Of a stretch of DNA of 64,000 nucleotides, positions 10,602 to 20,774 are shown in pieces. Source of the stretch: Deltaproteobacteria bacterium. Lineage in GTDB: Bacteria; Desulfobacterota; Syntrophia; Syntrophales; Smithellaceae. How positions within the stretch are numbered: the stretch's first letter is position 1; every line of letters starts with the position of its first letter. A program made the position numbers and the translations under genes. The notes under the pieces were generated by a model. The model made no database searches and was not told the origin of the DNA. It saw nothing but the letters and a program-made list of their open reading frames with translations. The stretch lies in assembly GCA_012729055.1 (NCBI GenBank), contig JAAYDW010000077.1, positions 31,127 through 95,126 of the forward strand, written 5' to 3'.

Positions 10602-11429
10602 ATGTTGAATATTGTGGTATGCATCAAGCAGGTGCCGATGGTCACCGAACTGCCCTGGGATGAAAAAACCGGGACGCTCCGCCGCGATCTGGCCGCGGGA
10701 ATGATGAATCCGGCCTGCAAGCACGCCGTGGAGGCCGCACTTCGGATCAAGGCCGACGGCGGCGCTTCGATCACGGTCGTCACCATGGGACCGCCCGCGG
10801 CGGAGGAGGTTCTGCGCGAAGCGCTCGCCATGGGCGCGGACCGGGGACTTCTGGTGTGCGACCGGCTCTTGGCCGGCTCCGATACGTACGCCACGTCTTT
10901 CGTGCTGGGCCGCGCCATCGCAAAAGAAGTTCCGGGCTACGACCTCATCCTGTGCGGGGCGTATACCTCCGACAGTGAAACGGCGCAGGTCGGGCCGCAG
11001 CTGGCCGAGGAACTCGATCTGCCGGCGGTGGCCTACGCCGAGCGGCTGGAAATTTCCGGCCGGGTGCTCCGGGTGCGCCGCCTGGTGGACAAGTTCCGCG
11101 AAACGCTGGAAATGGAATTTCCCGCGCTCGTGACCGTCTCGATGGAGCAGTACAAGCCGCGCTACGCTTCCTTTGCCGGAATCAACCGGGCGTTTGCCGA
11201 AGCGGACATCCTTTCCGTCAATCTGAAGCGCCTCGACATTACGCCCGCGGAGCTTGCCGCCCACGGCTCGCGCACCAGGGTCCGCCGGGTCTTCATCCGG
11301 AAAACCCAGAAGGAAAATGTTCTCATCACGGGAGCGGCGGCCAACGCCGCGGCCGAGTTTCTCGATAAGTACCAGCGGAAAATCAGCGCGGTGATCGGGA
11401 AATCCATCGAGGCGAAAAAACAGACCTGA
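10602..11429 (+). CDS. etfB: Electron transfer flavoprotein beta subunit
   Basis: Small ETF subunit that binds AMP or a second FAD. The 275-residue protein begins with the family signature NIVVCIKQVPMVTELPWDEK and has the conserved loop ELDLPAVAYAERLEI mid-protein. Lies 13 bases after acd and 13 before etfA, so co-transcribed. In anaerobes such Etf pairs may bifurcate electrons between NADH, ferredoxin and the acyl-CoA dehydrogenase. I cannot assign the bifurcating class from motifs alone, though the N-terminus resembles the anaerobic group more than the mitochondrial one. Confidence 0.92.
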   Translation: MLNIVVCIKQVPMVTELPWDEKTGTLRRDLAAGMMNPACKHAVEAALRIKADGGASITVVTMGPPAAEEVLREALAMGADRGLLVCDRLLAGSDTYATSFVLGRAIAKEVPGYDLILCGAYTSDSETAQVGPQLAEELDLPAVAYAERLEISGRVLRVRRLVDKFRETLEMEFPALVTVSMEQYKPRYASFAGINRAFAEADILSVNLKRLDITPAELAAHGSRTRVRRVFIRKTQKENVLITGAAANAAAEFLDKYQRKISAVIGKSIEAKKQT

Positions 11430-11442
11430 CGAAAGAAAAACG

Positions 11443-12444
11443 ATGACCGGAAAACGAAAAAGCATCTGGGTGTTCGGCGACTACCGCAACTATTATCAAA
11501 ACCGCGTGACGCTGCAATTGCTCTCCAAGGCGGTGGACCTCTCCCGCCTTCTGGATGCGGAAGTCTGCGCGGTGGTGGTGGGCCACGATCTGGAGGAGTG
11601 GATCATGGAATACACCGCGCACGGAGCGGACCGCATTCTGGCCATCGATCATCCCTCGCTTACCAGCTACAGCACGGAACATTACCTCATTCTGATGGAA
11701 AAGCTCGTCCGCGAAAGGGATCCGGACATTCTGCTTGTCGGCGCGACCGACTTCGGCCGGGAGTTTGCGCCCCGGCTCGCCAAGCGCCTGCACACCGGGC
11801 TTTCCGCCGATTGCGTGGGGTTGGAGCTGACTTCCGACGGCCTGCTGGTGCAAATCGCGCCCTCGTTCGGCGGCAACATGCTGGCGGAGATCGTTACGGA
11901 AAAGCACCGGCCGCAGATGGCCACCGTGCGTCCCGGCACTTTCCGGGAGATTCCCCACAACAGCGAACGGACCGCTGCGGTCGAGCGTCTGCCGCTGCCC
12001 GCCCAGCTGCCGTCCGCGCGCGTGCGCCAGGTCGAGTACGAACGCGCGGTGCAGCGGGAGCACGCCATCGAAAATGCCAACGTGATCGTCTGCGGCGGCC
12101 GCGGCCTGGGCAATAAAAACAATTTCCGGAAGCTCGACGAACTGGCGAAACTCCTGGGCGGAGACGTCGGCGCGACCCGGCCGGTGGTGTACGCCGGATG
12201 GGCCGGCCACGACGTTCTGATCGGCCAGGCGGGAAAGCACATCAAACCGAAAATTCTTTTTTCCTTCGGCATCAGCGGCGCCATCCAGCACACGGCGGGT
12301 CTGGGCGAGGCGGATTTCATCGTCGCCGTCAACAAGAATCCTCAGGCCACCATGATGAAGATGGCCGACGTCGCCATCGTGGCCGACGCGGCGGACTGGC
12401 TCAATCATCTCATCAAGGAACTCCGCCGGCGCATCCGCGAATAG
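11443..12444 (+). CDS. etfA: Electron transfer flavoprotein alpha subunit
   Basis: Large ETF subunit holding the mobile FAD domain. It has 333 residues with an N-terminal Rossmann-like domain (GATDFGREFAPRLAKRLHTG near 100-120) and the FAD-binding C-terminal domain, where GQAGKHIKPKIL, FGISGAIQHTAGL and IVAVNKNPQA match the ETF-alpha signature. The usual aromatic YIACG before ISGA is SFG here, a modest variation. ATG at 11443 is 13 bases after etfB. It ends three bases from the convergent DUF2179 gene stop, with no visible terminator apart from a GGCCGGCCGGCC palindrome. Works with acd and etfB. Confidence 0.92.
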   Translation: MTGKRKSIWVFGDYRNYYQNRVTLQLLSKAVDLSRLLDAEVCAVVVGHDLEEWIMEYTAHGADRILAIDHPSLTSYSTEHYLILMEKLVRERDPDILLVGATDFGREFAPRLAKRLHTGLSADCVGLELTSDGLLVQIAPSFGGNMLAEIVTEKHRPQMATVRPGTFREIPHNSERTAAVERLPLPAQLPSARVRQVEYERAVQREHAIENANVIVCGGRGLGNKNNFRKLDELAKLLGGDVGATRPVVYAGWAGHDVLIGQAGKHIKPKILFSFGISGAIQHTAGLGEADFIVAVNKNPQATMMKMADVAIVADAADWLNHLIKELRRRIRE

Positions 12445-13114: not shown

Positions 13115-13143
13115 TTGACACGAAGGGCTGCTTTTCCTATACT
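13115..13143 (+). promoter_or_regulatory. Consensus sigma70 promoter for the trehalose operon
   Basis: TTGACA (13115-13120), 17-base spacer, TATACT (13138-13143). The -35 directly abuts the third 12-bp repeat. The start codon of the ROK gene is about 200 bases downstream, so the transcript would have a long leader (about 13150-13345); I see a GC-rich dyad near 13300 there but no known riboswitch. Confidence 0.75.
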
Positions 13144-13345: not shown

Positions 13346-14344
13346 ATGCGCGAGCAAGACCTTGTTCTGGGCATCGATATCGGCGGGACCGGCACCGCGC
13401 TGGGATTCGTGGAGCGTTCGGGGGCTCTCACCCAGTATTGCGCCATTCCCACCCGCCCGGCCGATTCTGCCGAGGCTTTTGTCGTGGCGCTCCACCGGCG
13501 GATTGAAGCGCTGCGGGCGGAGATCCCCTTTCCCCACCGTCTGGCCGGGATCGGGATCGGCGCGCCCAACGCGCATCCCGTCCGCGGGACGCTCGAAGAG
13601 CCGGTCAATCTCGACTGGGGCGCAACCGTCGATCTTACAGCGCTGGTCCGCAAATACTACGACCTGCCCGTCGAGCTTACCAACGACGCCAAAGCCGCCG
13701 CCGCAGGCGAGATGCTGTTCGGGGGCGCCCGCGGCATGAAGCATTTTATCGTCGTTACGCTGGGCACCGGCCTGGGCTGCGGCATTGTGGCGGATGGGCG
13801 GGTCTTGACCGGAGCCAGCGGTTTTGCCGGGGAACTCGGCCACATGACCGTCGATCCGAACGGCCGCGAATGCCGCTGCGGGAAACGGGGTTGTCTGGAA
13901 ACCTACGTTTCCGCGACCGGCCTGGTCCGGACCGTCCTCGCGCTCCTGGCCAAGCGCTGCGACCCGAGCCCGCTGCGCCGCTGCGCCGCCGACGCCCTGA
14001 CCGCGCATAAAGTCTTTGAGCTCGCCTCGGCCGGAGACGCCATTTCGCTTTGCGCCTTCGACCGGACGGCGAGAATTCTGGGGATGAAGCTGGCCGACGC
14101 CGTCGCCTGCCTGAGCCCGGAAGCCGTTTTTCTTTCGGGAGGTCTGGCCGCAGCCGGAGACCTGATTGTTGCGCCGGCCGGGCGCTACATGAACGACTAC
14201 CTCTTTCGCGCTTACCGGGGGACGGTGCGACTGCTGCCGTCCGCTCTGAAGCCCGGCGAGGGCGCCGTGCTGGGGGCGGCCGCGCTCGTTTGGCGCAGGC
14301 TGGCGGCGGAAGACGCGTTTGGACGCAAGGAAGGGGCGGCATGA
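13346..14344 (+). CDS. ROK family sugar kinase (glucokinase-like)
   Basis: Predicted cytoplasmic kinase phosphorylating glucose or a similar hexose with ATP. The 332-residue protein has the phosphate-binding LGIDIGGTGTALGFVE at residues 7-22, the catalytic-aspartate region ELTNDAKAAAAGE near 110-122, and the ROK zinc motif ELGHMTVDPNGRECRCGKRG near 160-180. No N-terminal HTH, so an enzyme and not a repressor. GGGGAGG precedes ATG 13346. Its stop overlaps the GH15 start (ATGA). Beside a GH15 hydrolase it would phosphorylate glucose released from trehalose or glucan; substrate choice is inferred from context. Confidence 0.88.
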   Translation: MREQDLVLGIDIGGTGTALGFVERSGALTQYCAIPTRPADSAEAFVVALHRRIEALRAEIPFPHRLAGIGIGAPNAHPVRGTLEEPVNLDWGATVDLTALVRKYYDLPVELTNDAKAAAAGEMLFGGARGMKHFIVVTLGTGLGCGIVADGRVLTGASGFAGELGHMTVDPNGRECRCGKRGCLETYVSATGLVRTVLALLAKRCDPSPLRRCAADALTAHKVFELASAGDAISLCAFDRTARILGMKLADAVACLSPEAVFLSGGLAAAGDLIVAPAGRYMNDYLFRAYRGTVRLLPSALKPGEGAVLGAAALVWRRLAAEDAFGRKEGAA

Positions 14345-16131
14345 AAAATTCACTGGATCTGGGACTCATCGGCAACTGCCGCATCGGCGCGCTGATTGAC
14401 GAGCGCGGCGAAATTGTCTGGAACTGTCTGCCCCGGTTTGACGGCGATCCGATGTTCTGTTCGCTTTTGCGCGAGCATCCGGACAGCGAGGGCGGAGGCT
14501 ACTGCGTCGTGGAACTGTTCGATCAGGCGGAAGCGCAGCAATTCTATCTGCCCAACACGGCGGTTCTGGTCACCCGTCTCAAGGACAGTCACGGCGCGGC
14601 CATTGAGATCACGGATTTCACCCCCCGCTTTCACCAGTACGGCCGTACGTTCATGCCCGTGATGATTATTCGACAGATCCGGCGGCTCGCCGGCAATCCG
14701 CGCATCTGCGTGCGCGTCCGGCCGCTTTGCGAATACGGGGCCCAGGCCTGCGCGGTGACGCACGGCAGCCACCACATCCGGTATGTCGCCCCGTCCTGGG
14801 TCCTGCGGCTGACCACCGACATCTCCGTGACTGCCGTGCTTCAGGAGCTGCCTTTCTTTCTCGAAAGCACCGCCACGCTGATTCTGGGGCCGGACGAAAC
14901 CATTCCGGACGCCATCGGCGAGATCGCCCGCCGCTTTCTCAACGAAACCGTGGACAGCTGGCGCGACTGGGTGCGGGATTTGTCCATCCCGTTCGAGTGG
15001 CAGGAAGAAGTCATCCGCGCCGCCATTACGCTGAAGCTCAACACTTTCCAGGACACGGGCGCCATCATCGCGGCCATGACCACGTCCATCCCCGAGGCGC
15101 CCGGGTCCGGCCGCAACTGGGACTACCGCTACTGCTGGCTTCGGGATTCCTACTTCGTCGTGAACGCGCTCAACCGCCTGAGCACGACCAACACGATGGA
15201 GCGGTATTTGAATTATCTCATCAACGTCGTCGCCGGCGCGCCCGACGGACGCGTCCAGCCCGTGTACGGCATCGACGGACGGGCGCGCCTCGAAGAGTGC
15301 GAACTGTCCGCCCTGCCCGGCTACCAGGGCATGGGGCCCGTACGGATCGGCAATCAGGCCTGCGAGCAGATTCAGCACGACGTCTACGGCTCGGCCATTC
15401 TTGCCGTAGCGCACGTGTTTTTCGACCGCCGGCTCGCGCATCGGGGAGGCCAGGCCCTTTTCACGCGGCTGGAGCCGCTGGGGGAGGCGGCCATCTTAGT
15501 TCACGATCAGCCGGATTCCGGACCGTGGGAGACGCGCAACACCCTGCGCGTTCATACCTTTTCCGGCATCATGTGCTGGGCCGCCTGCGACCGTCTGGCC
15601 CGGATCGCCGACTACATCGGCCTTTCCGACCGGGCCGCCTACTGGCAGGGCAAGGCCCGCATTATCCACGAAACCGTTTGTCGTCGGGCCTGGAACGAAA
15701 AGAAACAGACCTTTGTGGCTTCCTTCGAAGGCGACGCGCTCGACGCGAGCCTGCTTCTGATCCATGACATCGGATTTCTGGCGGCCGACGATCCGCGCTT
15801 CGCAAAAACCGTCGCCGCCGTCGAGCGGGAGCTGCGCCACGGCAACTACATTTACCGCTATGTCGAGAAGGATGATTTCGGCGTGCCGGAAAATGCGTTT
15901 GTGGTCTGCACCTTCTGGTACATTTACGCGCTGGCCGCTTTGGGCCGCGCCGATGAGGCGCGCGATCTTTTCGCCAATCTGCTGGCCCGGCGCAACCGTC
16001 ACGGCCTTTTGGCCGAACATCTCGATCCCCGCACGGGCGTCCCGTGGGGGAATTTCGTTCAGACGTACAGCATGGTGGGGCTGATCAACGCCGCCATCCG
16101 TCTGAGCAAGCGCTGGGACAGCGCCTTTTAA
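14341..16131 (+). CDS. Glycoside hydrolase family 15 protein (trehalase or glucoamylase type)
   Basis: Inverting alpha-glucosidase family. The real start is ATG 14341 (MKNSLDLGLIGNC), giving 596 residues; the longer track ORF enters the ROK gene. An N-terminal beta-domain (about 1-220, opening LIGNCRIGALIDERGEIVW) is followed by an alpha/alpha barrel with NWDYRYCWLRDSYFV (about 259-273) and the C-terminal segment LLAEHLDPRTGVPWGNF (about 558-574) containing the expected catalytic glutamate. No signal peptide, so cytoplasmic. Between a hexokinase and otsAB it may hydrolyse trehalose, as actinobacterial GH15 trehalases do, or a storage glucan. The motifs do not decide between these. Confidence 0.88.
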   Translation: MKNSLDLGLIGNCRIGALIDERGEIVWNCLPRFDGDPMFCSLLREHPDSEGGGYCVVELFDQAEAQQFYLPNTAVLVTRLKDSHGAAIEITDFTPRFHQYGRTFMPVMIIRQIRRLAGNPRICVRVRPLCEYGAQACAVTHGSHHIRYVAPSWVLRLTTDISVTAVLQELPFFLESTATLILGPDETIPDAIGEIARRFLNETVDSWRDWVRDLSIPFEWQEEVIRAAITLKLNTFQDTGAIIAAMTTSIPEAPGSGRNWDYRYCWLRDSYFVVNALNRLSTTNTMERYLNYLINVVAGAPDGRVQPVYGIDGRARLEECELSALPGYQGMGPVRIGNQACEQIQHDVYGSAILAVAHVFFDRRLAHRGGQALFTRLEPLGEAAILVHDQPDSGPWETRNTLRVHTFSGIMCWAACDRLARIADYIGLSDRAAYWQGKARIIHETVCRRAWNEKKQTFVASFEGDALDASLLLIHDIGFLAADDPRFAKTVAAVERELRHGNYIYRYVEKDDFGVPENAFVVCTFWYIYALAALGRADEARDLFANLLARRNRHGLLAEHLDPRTGVPWGNFVQTYSMVGLINAAIRLSKRWDSAF

Positions 16132-16150
16132 AACGGAAAGGAGGGGGGTC

Positions 16151-18409
16151 ATGCTTTTTCCGGCCGGAGCCAAGATACGATCCTCCCGCTCCCTGCGCCT
16201 GGCGCTCCGGTTCGTTCTGCCGCTCGTCGCGGCGCTGACGCTGCTCGCCTACCTGGTCGTTCCGCTGGTGGACAGGCTGAACCTGCGCTGGTCCGTGCGC
16301 GACATGGACATCCGTTCGCAGCTCATCGCCGACACCCTCCAGGAGCCGCTGGGCGAGCTGCTCGAACAGGGCCACAAGATGAAGATCAACACGCTTCTGG
16401 CCCGGGCGACGCGAGATGAACGGCTTTTTGCGCTGGGCTACTGCGACGGCCGCGGGAGGCTTCTTTATTCGTCGCCGGTGTTTCCCGCCCAGCTGGGCTG
16501 CTCTCCGCCCAGGTCGTCGGACAGCGAGTCGCCGCTGGTCCAGCTGTCCCAGGGGCTGGTGCATGTCGCCGTCCGTCCCGTGATCGTCGCCGACGTTCCG
16601 AGAGGATCGCTCATTCTGGTGCACGACATGAGCTTCGTCCAGCACCGCAGCGCCGATACGCGCAAGTACATCGTGCTTTTGTTTGCCGTGCTGGGGCTGG
16701 TGATCTCGTTCATCACGGTGCTGGTGGCGCATTTGAGCTGGCGCGGCTGGATGAACGGCGTGCGCGCGCTGCTGCGGGGCGAGGGGCTGGTGCGGCCGTT
16801 TGCCAAGCCCGTCGATTCCGAACTGCAGCCGCTCGTGGGCGACCTGCGTTCGCTTCTGCGCTCCATCGACGCGGAAAAGCGCATGGCTGACGACACCACC
16901 GTCGCCTGGACGCCGGATGCTCTGCGGACGCTCTTGTACGAACAACTGGCGGGCGAGCAAATCATGGTGGTGTCGAACCGGGAACCCTACATTCACATGC
17001 AGGGAACCGACGGCATCAAGATTCTGCAGCCGGCCAGCGGTTTGGTTACGGCGGTGGAACCCGTCATGCGTGCCTGTTCGGGCATCTGGATCGCCCATGG
17101 CGGCGGCACGGCGGACCGCGAGGTGGTGGACAGGAAAGACCATGTCCGCGTGCCGCCGGATGCGCCGGACTACACGCTGAGGCGGATCTGGCTCAGCCCC
17201 GAAGAGGAAAAGGGATACTATTACGGACTGGCCAATGAAGGGCTCTGGCCGCTTTGCCACATCGCCCACGTCCGCCCCGTTTTCCGGACGGAAGACTGGC
17301 GGCATTATGCGGCGGTCAATGCGCGTTTTGCCGACGCCGTGGTGAAGGAAGCCCAGCGGGATGATCCGGTGGTGCTGATCCAGGACTATCATTTCGCGCT
17401 GCTGCCGCTCATGCTGCGGAAGGTTCTGCCCCGGGCGACGATCATTACCTTCTGGCACATTCCCTGGCCCAATCCGGAATCCTTCGGCATCTGTCCCTGG
17501 CGCGATGAACTCTTGCGCGGCATGCTGGGCAGCACGATTCTCGGCTTCCACACGCCGTTTCACTGCAAGAATTTCCTGGAAACGGTGGACCGCTACCTGG
17601 AAACGCGCGTGGACCACGCTTCTTCCACCATTTTTCACGGCGGCACTCTGACGCTGGTGGAAGCTTATCCGATTTCCATTCAGTGGCCGCCGCCCTGGCA
17701 GGATTCCCAGCCGTCCATCGAAGAGTGCCGGGCCGACATCCGCCGGTCCCTCGACATCGCGCCGGACGGTTTCGTCGGTCTGGGCGTGGACCGGCTCGAT
17801 TATACCAAGGGCATTCTGGAGCGGCTTCGGGCGGTCGAACAGCTGCTCGTGAGCCATCCGGAGCTGATCGGACGATTTTCATTCATTCAGATCGCCGCGC
17901 CGTCGCGTTCGGTTCTGGAAGAGTATCATTCGTTCGAGTCGCGCGTGCGGGCGCTGGCCGCCGAGATCAACCTGCGCTTCGGCCGGGGGAATTACCAGCC
18001 CCTTCATCTGCGGGTGACGCACCACGAGCCCCGGGACGTCAACCGCTACTACCGGGCCGCGGACGTGTGCGTCGTCACGAGTCTGCACGACGGAATGAAT
18101 CTGGTGGCCAAGGAGTTCATCGCCGCCCGCGACGATGAACGGGGCGTGCTGGTCCTGAGCCGCTTCACCGGCGCGGCGCACGAACTCTACGAAGCCCTGA
18201 TCGTCAATCCCTATCACATCGAACAGACGGCAGACGCCCTGTACACGGCGCTCACCATGCCGGCGTTCGAGCAACGCGAACGGATGCGCAGCATGCGGAA
18301 CCTGGTGCGCAGTTTTAATGTTTACCGCTGGGCGGGGCGGATGCTGCTCGACGCCGCCCGGATCCGGCAGCGCGAAAAACTGACAGCGCGGATCGGGGTC
18401 CAGCCATGA
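16151..18409 (+). CDS. otsA: Membrane-anchored trehalose-6-phosphate synthase with sensor-like N-terminus
   Basis: GT20 enzyme joining UDP-glucose and glucose-6-phosphate to trehalose-6-phosphate. At 752 residues it is far longer than the usual 450-500. Residues 1-250 look like a signalling receptor: TM1 about 20-40, an extracytoplasmic stretch about 41-172 containing [17 protein letters not shown] as in CACHE/PAS-like sensors, TM2 about 173-195, then a HAMP-like linker. The GT20 domain (270-740) keeps [41 protein letters not shown] and [12 protein letters not shown], so activity is expected. The acceptor loop reads [10 protein letters not shown] where many OtsA have a W-rich motif. GGAGGGGGTC precedes the ATG. 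otsB overlaps by four bases. Confidence 0.88.
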
Positions 18410-19185
18410 CGCATTTTCGGTCCGCGGCTTTCCTTTTCGGAAAATCCGCGCAGGCCCGGTTGGCGGATTTTGTCGATCCGGTCACGCTGTTTGCCTTCGA
18501 CCTGGACGGGACGCTGGCGCCCATTGTCTCCGATCCCGCGCTCGTCCGCGTTCCGGATGCGGTGGAGCGCGCCCTGGCCGAGCTGGCCGGCCGGGCTCCC
18601 GTCGCGATCATCACCGGACGCTCCCGTTCGGACGCTCTGGCGCATCTCGAAAGCCCGCCGCGCTATGTGATCGGCAACCACGGCGCGGAGGGGCTGCCCG
18701 GCTGGGCCGAGCGCGAAAACGACTTTGTCCGGACGGCGCAGGGCTGGCAGCAGCAGCTCGACATCCTGCTTCCGCAGGAGGAACAAACGGGCATTGTGAT
18801 CGAAAACAAGGGCCCGACGCTCTCGATTCATTACCGGCGCGCCGTGAACATCCCGGCGGCCCAGGGACTGGTTCTGCATGCCGTCCGGCGGCTTTTGCCG
18901 CCGCCTCGGCGCGTCAGCGGAAAATTCGTGGAAAATCTGCTGCCGGACGGCGCTCCGGACAAGGGGGTCGCGCTTGAGCTGCTGATGCGGCGGGAAAACC
19001 TGGCGAAAGCGTTTTTTGTCGGCGACGATGAAACGGATGAAGATATTTTCCGCCTTGGCCGCAAAAACATTTTTACCGTCCGGGTGGGACAAAAGGAAAC
19101 GAGCGGCGCGGGCTTTTATCTGCGGGGCCAGTATGAAATGGCCGGACTCCTGCGCCTGCTCAACCGCCTGCTGAAACGTTTCTAA
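18406..19185 (+). CDS. otsB: Trehalose-6-phosphate phosphatase
   Basis: HAD-superfamily phosphatase releasing trehalose from trehalose-6-phosphate in the cytoplasm. The 259-residue protein has the catalytic DxD motif in FDLDGTLAPIV near residue 28, the second motif IITGRSR near 68, and the magnesium-binding GDDETDEDIF near 206-215. The N-terminal extension is short and unremarkable. The ATG overlaps the otsA stop codon (ATGA), so both enzymes of the pathway are made together. No terminator follows; the usp promoter starts within a few bases of the stop. Confidence 0.93.
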   Translation: MTHFRSAAFLFGKSAQARLADFVDPVTLFAFDLDGTLAPIVSDPALVRVPDAVERALAELAGRAPVAIITGRSRSDALAHLESPPRYVIGNHGAEGLPGWAERENDFVRTAQGWQQQLDILLPQEEQTGIVIENKGPTLSIHYRRAVNIPAAQGLVLHAVRRLLPPPRRVSGKFVENLLPDGAPDKGVALELLMRRENLAKAFFVGDDETDEDIFRLGRKNIFTVRVGQKETSGAGFYLRGQYEMAGLLRLLNRLLKRF

Positions 19186-19246: not shown

Positions 19247-19657
19247 ATGAAAGAATTTCGAAATCTGCTCTACGCGATCAATCTGGACGACGAACGCCCG
19301 TCGTCGATGATATTTGCCCTGGAATGTGCGCGTCTGTTTAAGAGCCGGCTGCACGTGGTCTATGTGAACGATCCGCAGGCAGGATACCGCCATCCGACCG
19401 ACCGGGAAGACGCCATCGCTCTCAAGGTCCGCCAGGCCGTCCCCGCGGCGCTGTTGGAGGATGTGGAGATCGTTTACGCCGCCGCCCGGGGAAACGCGGC
19501 GGAGGAAATCGTCAAGTATGCGGAGGCGCAGGACATCGATTTGCTGATCGTCGGGCATAAACACCGCAGCAAACTCTATTCCTCCATGTTTGACAGCACC
19601 GACGTCAATATCATCGACACGGCGCTGAGGCCGGTTCTGGTCATTCCGGAAAAGTAG
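19247..19657 (+). CDS. Universal stress protein (UspA family)
   Basis: Small cytoplasmic alpha/beta protein of 136 residues. It begins EFRNLLYAINLDDERPSS and ends with the family strand RPVLVIPEK. The nucleotide-binding GxxGx(9)G(S/T) motif is replaced by GHKHRSKLYSSMFDSTD, so it is probably the non-ATP-binding UspA subtype. GGAAGGT lies before the ATG. The position between otsB and mscS supports a role in osmotic or general stress. A second, different Usp is at 36461-36907. Confidence 0.85.
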   Translation: MKEFRNLLYAINLDDERPSSMIFALECARLFKSRLHVVYVNDPQAGYRHPTDREDAIALKVRQAVPAALLEDVEIVYAAARGNAAEEIVKYAEAQDIDLLIVGHKHRSKLYSSMFDSTDVNIIDTALRPVLVIPEK

Positions 19658-19718: not shown

Positions 19719-20774
19719 ATGGACATTTTGAACACCATCTATCTGGGAAACACGCTGCAAAGCTGGCTCGCGGCGGTTTTGATTCTGGCCGCCGTGTTTG
19801 CCGTTTTGAAAATCGTCCAGCGCGCCGCCATCTCCCGGCTGACGAAGCTGTCCGCCGCCACCGACAATCAAATCGACGATCTTCTGGTCACGATGCTGAG
19901 GCAGACGAAATTTTTCATCCTGCTTATCGCCTCCGCGTATGTGGCGTCTTACGCGGTTGTGCTGAGGCCGTCCGTCGCGGCGCTGTGGCAGAAGGCGGTG
20001 ATTCTGGTCCTGATTGTTCAGGGCGGCCTCTGGGCCAGCGCCGGCGTCCGGTTCTGGCTTGGCCGGACGATCGCCAGGCGGATGGATCAGGACGCCTCCA
20101 GCGCCACCACGCTGTCGCTTTTGGGATTCGTGGCGCGCATGGTTCTCTGGATCATCGTGTTCCTGCTGATTCTGGACAATCTGGGCGTCAACATCACGGG
20201 GCTCGTGGCGGGGCTGGGCATCGGCGGCATCGCCGTGGCGCTGGCCGTGCAGAATATTCTGGGCGATCTGCTGGCGTCTTTGTCGATCGTGCTGGACAAA
20301 CCTTTCGTCATCGGCGATTTTATCGTGGTGGATGCGCTTTCCGGGACGGTCGAGCACATCGGACTCAAGACCACGCGCATTCGCAGCCTGAGCGGCGAGC
20401 AGCTCATTTTTTCCAACAACGATCTTTTGAAAAGCCGCATCCGCAACTACAAGCGCATGGAAGAGCGGCGCATCATCTTCAGCTTCCGCGTCGTGTATTC
20501 GACGCCCCCGGAGAAGCTGGAGCGCATCAAGGCAATCGTGTGGGACATCATCGAAAAAACGCCGAAAGCGCGCCCCGACCGTGTCCATTTCAAGGAATTC
20601 GCCGATTCGTCTCTGAACTATGAAGTGGTTTATTTTGTAGCCCTGCCGGATTACAATGTCTATATGGATGTTCAGGAAGCGATCAATCTGGCCATCTACC
20701 GCCGCTTCCAGGAAGAAGGCATCGCGTTCGCGTATCCGACGCAGACGATTTTTCTTGAACGCACGACCGGTTAA
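19719..20774 (+). CDS. Mechanosensitive ion channel MscS family
   Basis: Small-conductance mechanosensitive channel relieving hypo-osmotic pressure, inner membrane. The 351-residue protein has about four or five transmembrane helices in the first 190 residues, the last being the pore helix with VAGLGIGGIAVALAVQNILG (about 163-182), followed by the beta domain (KPFVIGDFIVVDALSGTVEHI near 195-215) and the C-terminal alpha/beta domain. The extra N-terminal helices are common in long MscS (YnaI/MscM-like). Sixty bases follow usp; a shared transcript is likely. An AT-rich hairpin with a T-run (20837-20861) may end it. Confidence 0.9.
   Translation: MDILNTIYLGNTLQSWLAAVLILAAVFAVLKIVQRAAISRLTKLSAATDNQIDDLLVTMLRQTKFFILLIASAYVASYAVVLRPSVAALWQKAVILVLIVQGGLWASAGVRFWLGRTIARRMDQDASSATTLSLLGFVARMVLWIIVFLLILDNLGVNITGLVAGLGIGGIAVALAVQNILGDLLASLSIVLDKPFVIGDFIVVDALSGTVEHIGLKTTRIRSLSGEQLIFSNNDLLKSRIRNYKRMEERRIIFSFRVVYSTPPEKLERIKAIVWDIIEKTPKARPDRVHFKEFADSSLNYEVVYFVALPDYNVYMDVQEAINLAIYRRFQEEGIAFAYPTQTIFLERTTG

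Follow-up and report, generated by a model that had tools for sequence, protein, structure and literature searches.

CACHE domains usually have kinases, chemoreceptors or cyclic-nucleotide enzymes as their outputs. In the sensor histidine kinases WalK/YycG, CitA and KinD, a first transmembrane helix (TM1), a single CACHE-type domain, a second transmembrane helix (TM2) and a two-helix linker lead to a DHp/CA kinase output. Reference trehalose-6-phosphate (T6P) synthases of the OtsA/TPS type, such as those of E. coli (1gz5/1uqt) and Mycobacterium thermoresistibile (5jio), begin at the SNR motif, are about 470-490 residues long and have no transmembrane helix. In Thermoproteus tenax, trehalose synthase is linked to a mechanosensitive channel in the TPSP-GT-MSC operon and TPS is regulated by a protein partner: the TPS-TPP fusion is activated by a separate glycosyltransferase, with no receptor domain described (PMC3634074). 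The OtsA of Arthrobacter A3 has been described as an osmotic stress sensor, a self-assembling morphogenetic protein that acts with T6P (PMC5685639).

Here we analyzed a 64,000-nucleotide window of a Deltaproteobacteria bacterium genome (Smithellaceae; contig JAAYDW010000077.1, positions 31,127 to 95,126), which encodes a receptor-like T6P synthase, an enzyme of the pathway to the stress protectant trehalose. The protein has the TM1-CACHE-TM2-linker arrangement in common with WalK/YycG, CitA and KinD, whereas its output is a biosynthetic glycosyltransferase without DHp/CA. With OtsA/TPS it shares the GT-B domain, the UDP-glucose and most glucose-6-phosphate residues and an OtsB partner gene, but a 265-residue membrane receptor precedes the enzyme and a histidine, H316, stands in place of a conserved tryptophan. 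The receptor is fused, unlike the separate activator of T. tenax. The Arthrobacter A3 protein would resemble it in coupling OtsA to osmotic sensing, but the word “transmembrane” is absent from the text of that paper (PMC5685639). A search for literature on membrane-bound, CACHE- or HAMP-fused T6P synthases returned nothing on such a fusion in open papers, most subscription journals lying outside its scope. Each part is known, and the combination appears to be undescribed in the open literature. The features of the gene are as follows.

16137-16144, + strand: Shine-Dalgarno sequence AAAGGAGG, read from the sequence; strong, 6 nt before the ATG
16151-18409, + strand: receptor-like trehalose-6-phosphate synthase, 752 aa
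16214-16270, + strand: TM1, aa 22-40, N-terminus inside (hydropathy peak 2.52, positive N-tail; within model helix 12-73)
16277-16663, + strand: predicted extracytoplasmic single-CACHE-type domain, aa 43-171 (AlphaFold2, Foldseek, conservation)
16670-16726, + strand: TM2, aa 174-192 (hydropathy 3.11)
16736-16900, + strand: HAMP-like signal linker, aa 196-250 (model helix, connector, helix; hhalign alignment to the clade B HAMP)
16961-18352, + strand: GT20 trehalose-6-phosphate synthase domain, aa 271-734 (Pfam, Foldseek, active-site residues)

The first-pass annotation had proposed that a membrane sensor layout is fused to a GT20 enzyme at this locus, and the fusion is confirmed: the ORF is intact, hydropathy gives exactly two transmembrane helices behind a basic N-tail, and the GT20 domain scores 383 bits against a Pfam cut-off of 32.5. 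Fusion orthologues begin at about the same start site. Outside the protein's own genome, 58 relatives were searched and 20 of them have near-full-length orthologues with 69-79% identity; purifying selection also acts on the sensor loop (see below). The fusion is therefore neither a chance product nor an assembly artefact. GT20 is the only output found after the linker, with no kinase (DHp/CA) or MCP signalling domain, and the protein resembles histidine kinases and chemoreceptors at its input end only. A long antisense ORF (16085-17857, - strand) was interpreted as a shadow ORF opposite a GC-rich gene.

An AlphaFold2 model of the sensor, built on a 54-sequence alignment, has a mean pLDDT of 87. 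Its extracytoplasmic region of ~130 residues forms a block with pLDDT values of 87-98, except for a loop at about aa 121-130. The modelled elements are helices at aa 12-73 and 76-89, five strands and a helix at aa 161-208, which contains TM2 and leads into the cell, followed by a connector and a last helix at aa 226-250; the long N-terminal helix and the antiparallel PAS-like sheet between two transmembrane helices give the CACHE sensor layout. When the model was compared with the PDB by Foldseek, the first match was the full-length WalK model 9a5d (E 3.8e-7), followed by WalK/YycG extracellular domains (TMt 0.58-0.62), CitA, KinD and many double-CACHE chemoreceptors. The predicted fold is thus of the single-CACHE class, in line with the folded extracytoplasmic domain that the initial proposal had assumed.

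Profile searches were also performed on the N-terminal region. Pfam gave no match to aa 1-263, or to aa 1-190 alone, even at E 10, and no Pfam CACHE profile matched the window protein, while a homologue from a second clade (L130 of clade B) scored 26.0 bits with dCache_3 (cut-off 25.7; sCache_3_2 best E 1.8e-5). A weak NCBIfam match of aa 12-196 to a heavy-metal sensor kinase (E 2.4e-4) hints at a sensor-kinase layout. Against PDB sequences, the profile of the clade A N-terminus found nothing meaningful and that of clade B weakly found KinD/WalK. Pfam Adeno_E3B matches in 25 of the 54 aligned sensor sequences were judged to be noise from transmembrane composition. The near-invariant residues of the sensor are R91, D159, R166, C98 and C117. 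The two cysteines (aa 98-117, 16442-16501) occur in every one of the 30 sampled clade A rows, are missing from clade B and may form a periplasmic disulfide.

The linker is predicted as helix-connector-helix, with aa 203-222 at low confidence in the full-length model. Pfam HAMP does not match the window protein and, of the marks of a HAMP domain (a conserved proline in AS1 and a glutamate at AS2), the AS1 proline is absent. In clade B (L024, L129-L143), a distant clade of the fusion with a more canonical HAMP, the AS1 proline is present (TGPIAQIA); the N-termini of the two clades are homologous (hhalign probability 99.8), and the clade A linker aligns to the clade B HAMP. Among the 54 aligned sensor sequences, one matches Pfam HAMP (E 3.4e-6), presumably L024, whose sequence reads as a canonical HAMP. 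On this homology and this match, the reading of the linker as a degenerate HAMP is partly supported, and the HAMP call is weaker than the CACHE call. Of the sensor layout first suggested, the TM/CACHE/TM part therefore stands on hydropathy, AlphaFold2 and Foldseek, whereas the HAMP-like linker holds in part: the helix layout is predicted, and Pfam HAMP gives no match.

We then compared the evolutionary constraints on the two halves of the protein. The dN/dS is 0.16 for the sensor loop (median), 0.13 for TM2 and the linker and 0.08 for the enzyme, which indicates that both the sensor loop and the linker are under purifying selection. The sensor sequence diverges faster than that of the enzyme, as would be expected if it were a neutral, functionless relic left over from fusion to the input part of a histidine kinase. 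However, the dN/dS of the sensor, the retention of the fusion across phyla, the invariant residues and the lack of stops or frameshifts in most copies all speak against a relic; purifying selection largely refutes this explanation, and we regard it as very improbable.

The fusion gene lies in a run of genes that are all on the + strand, in the order ROK, GH15, receptor-OtsA, OtsB, Usp, MscS and CitMHS_2.

13115-13143, + strand: sigma-70-like promoter TTGACA-17-TATACT upstream of the cluster, a consensus match only
13346-14344, + strand: ROK-family glucokinase-like protein, at the head of the cluster (domain matches)
14359-16131, + strand: GH15 trehalase/glucoamylase-like hydrolase with TREH_N (domain matches)
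18406-19185, + strand: OtsB trehalose-6-phosphate phosphatase (PF02358; NCBIfam T6PP 91 bits, cut-off 68)
19247-19657, + strand: universal stress protein, Usp (domain match; syntenic in 3 of 19 relatives)
19719-20774, + strand: MscS-type mechanosensitive channel (domain match; syntenic in 4 of 19 relatives)

The otsB start overlaps the receptor-OtsA stop by 4 nt (ATGA). Among the 19 relatives, GH15 and OtsB each adjoin the fusion in 18. In the fetched flanks of the 80 best of at least 577 loci (tblastn), OtsB is encoded at 69 and GH15 at 51, mostly adjacent, and no other common gene family was found around these 80. As these two recur and no other family is common, the comparison indicates that what is conserved is a unit for making and turning over trehalose. 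Usp and MscS were rejected as the core of the system on their synteny counts (3-4 of 19 relatives, some with incomplete flanks); by the same comparison the MscS linkage is local, and it echoes the TPSP-GT-MSC operon of T. tenax (PMC3634074). In a Geobacter locus (L037), a gene for a GGDEF diguanylate cyclase (11072-11926) lies just downstream of otsB.

The closest fold to the catalytic domain in Foldseek is the M. thermoresistibile T6P synthase 5jio (TMt 0.91). In E. coli OtsA, the substrate-binding residues are R9, G22, W40, Y76, W85, D130, H154, R262, R300, D361 and E369 (PMC1769515). With E. coli OtsA (L113) as the reference, and UDP-glucose and glucose-6-phosphate roles taken from the same paper, the residues R277, G297, Y357, W366, D412, H436, R548, R586, D647 and E655 are kept. 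The enzyme had been called apparently intact in the first pass, and the substrate-binding residues tested are indeed retained with one exception: H316 (17096-17098) replaces the second tryptophan of E. coli LWFGW (Trp 42 counted with Met). This tryptophan is probably the acceptor-site Trp40 of the literature, the numbering being offset. The position is a histidine in the 88 family members aligned and a tyrosine in one protein of an anchor-only branch described below. A further histidine, H646 (18086-18088), stands in place of the arginine before DGMNL. Together, H316 and H646 could reflect a possible acceptor-site change across the whole subfamily.

The protein reaches 397.8 bits with the OtsA equivalog NCBIfam TIGR02400 (cut-off 564.9) and 272 bits with glucosylglycerol-P synthase (cut-off 569), and thus lies below every NCBIfam equivalog cut-off. 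The sequence points to a GT20 member of a divergent subfamily and, because of these scores, we infer T6P synthesis as its reaction from fold, residues and neighbours. One alternative is that the receptor controls the formation of another sugar phosphate, the GT20 domain using a different acceptor from that of a classical T6P synthase. This would fit the sub-threshold scores and the histidine in place of the probable acceptor-site Trp40. However, the remaining glucose-6-phosphate and UDP-glucose residues tested are kept, the closest fold is that of a T6P synthase, a T6P phosphatase adjoins, and a trehalase-like GH15 is often nearby, so that we consider a different acceptor improbable.

To analyze the distribution of the fusion, we scanned 84,980 genomes and confirmed at least 577 relatives, which bears out the earlier suspicion that databases may hold similar long OtsA proteins: several phyla carry the fusion widely. 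The best 80 of these align in full length over sensor and enzyme and come from Desulfobacterota (Smithella, Geobacter and others), Burkholderiales and other Betaproteobacteria, Nitrospira/Nitrospirota, Bdellovibrionota, Acidobacteriota, Gemmatimonadota and Arenimonas. A profile of the N-terminal region matched 36 of 395 genomes in the protein's own phylum, 9 of 349 in the phylum of Janthinobacterium (4 of these nearly full-length), 20 of 118 in that of Nitrospira and 22 of 114 in that of Bdellovibrionales. In all 27 comparable genomes of its own phylum, ~20 nt at most separate the end of the sensor match from the GT20 match, and both lie in one ORF and frame. As the sensor runs straight into GT20 in every case, it is, on these matches, dedicated to GT20; no second copy of the sensor was found in the protein's own genome. 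The fusion is the only GT20 protein in 14 of 17 named genomes. No full-length fusion was found in plasmid records, and related plasmid proteins are annotated plainly as trehalose-6-phosphate synthase. Three GT20 proteins of ~730-760 aa (L028, L030 and L032, from the same order) carry their extra sequence after the synthase domain, not before it, and are presumably OtsA-OtsB fusions; ORF length alone therefore does not identify the receptor fusion.

Sensor and enzyme distances are strongly correlated (Mantel r 0.92, a value that none of 999 permutations reached; within clade A r is 0.79), which suggests that the two diverged together and would also be expected from shared vertical inheritance alone. 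In the GT20 tree the fused proteins form one group with moderate support (92/65), beside the unfused L025-L027; L147 is fused, by its sequence. Inside clade A, a branch without CACHE (support 100/99), comprising a protein of an Aminobacter plasmid (L144, 5842-7659) and L152-L154, has kept one transmembrane anchor and the WTP-LR linker. On this tree, it is simplest to suppose that the receptor was gained once and that the sensor was later lost once, while the membrane anchor stayed.

This branch bears directly on the main rival explanation, in which the N-terminus is a membrane anchor or scaffold without sensing that brings trehalose synthesis to the membrane, close to OtsB, transporters or MscS, or that forces the protein to dimerise. 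Membrane attachment outlives sensing in the Aminobacter-type proteins, which indicates that sensing is not indispensable to the enzyme, and the HAMP of clade A is degenerate. Membrane association itself is predicted by an anchor and by a receptor alike. However, a folded 130-aa domain with near-invariant residues, kept under purifying selection in six phyla, goes beyond what anchoring requires, and we think a pure anchor rather unlikely, though less so than a change of acceptor.

We propose, with slightly better than even confidence, that the protein is a one-component, membrane-embedded receptor-enzyme that directly gates T6P synthesis. This agrees with the first-pass suggestion that an osmotic or ligand signal could gate trehalose synthesis. 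The CACHE domain would sense an envelope cue outside the cytoplasmic membrane, such as a small molecule or the osmotic or ionic conditions; given the trehalose pathway, the cue could be osmotic or ionic. TM2 and the HAMP-like coil would relay the resulting conformational change to the OtsA domain, which is covalently attached and whose rate of T6P synthesis the sensor would set. OtsB, translated from the next, overlapping gene, would dephosphorylate T6P, and the GH15 enzyme and the ROK kinase would recycle trehalose to glucose-6-phosphate. In this model the gene structure, the topology (by hydropathy), the predicted CACHE fold, the conserved catalytic site and the conservation of fusion and gene cluster come from the data, whereas the effect of the sensor on enzyme activity and the nature of the cue are inferred.

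Our results show that at least six phyla conserve a CACHE receptor layout joined to a glycosyltransferase of biosynthesis, and the sensor domain, unrecognised by Pfam, would merit a family of its own. The proteins without CACHE (L144, L152-L154) provide a natural comparison set for sensing versus anchoring. It is an evenly balanced question, in our view, whether these proteins represent a widespread class of one-component receptor-enzymes whose extracytoplasmic CACHE domain exerts direct allosteric control over how fast a compatible solute is made, so that osmotic or envelope stress would control trehalose within seconds and without phosphorelay or transcription. If the gating is true, rapid switch-on of trehalose synthesis becomes testable in culturable hosts with the fusion as their only GT20, such as Janthinobacterium sp. 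LM6, Roseateles and Rubrivivax gelatinosus, and the fusion would link the cell envelope to osmolyte production directly, at the post-translational level.
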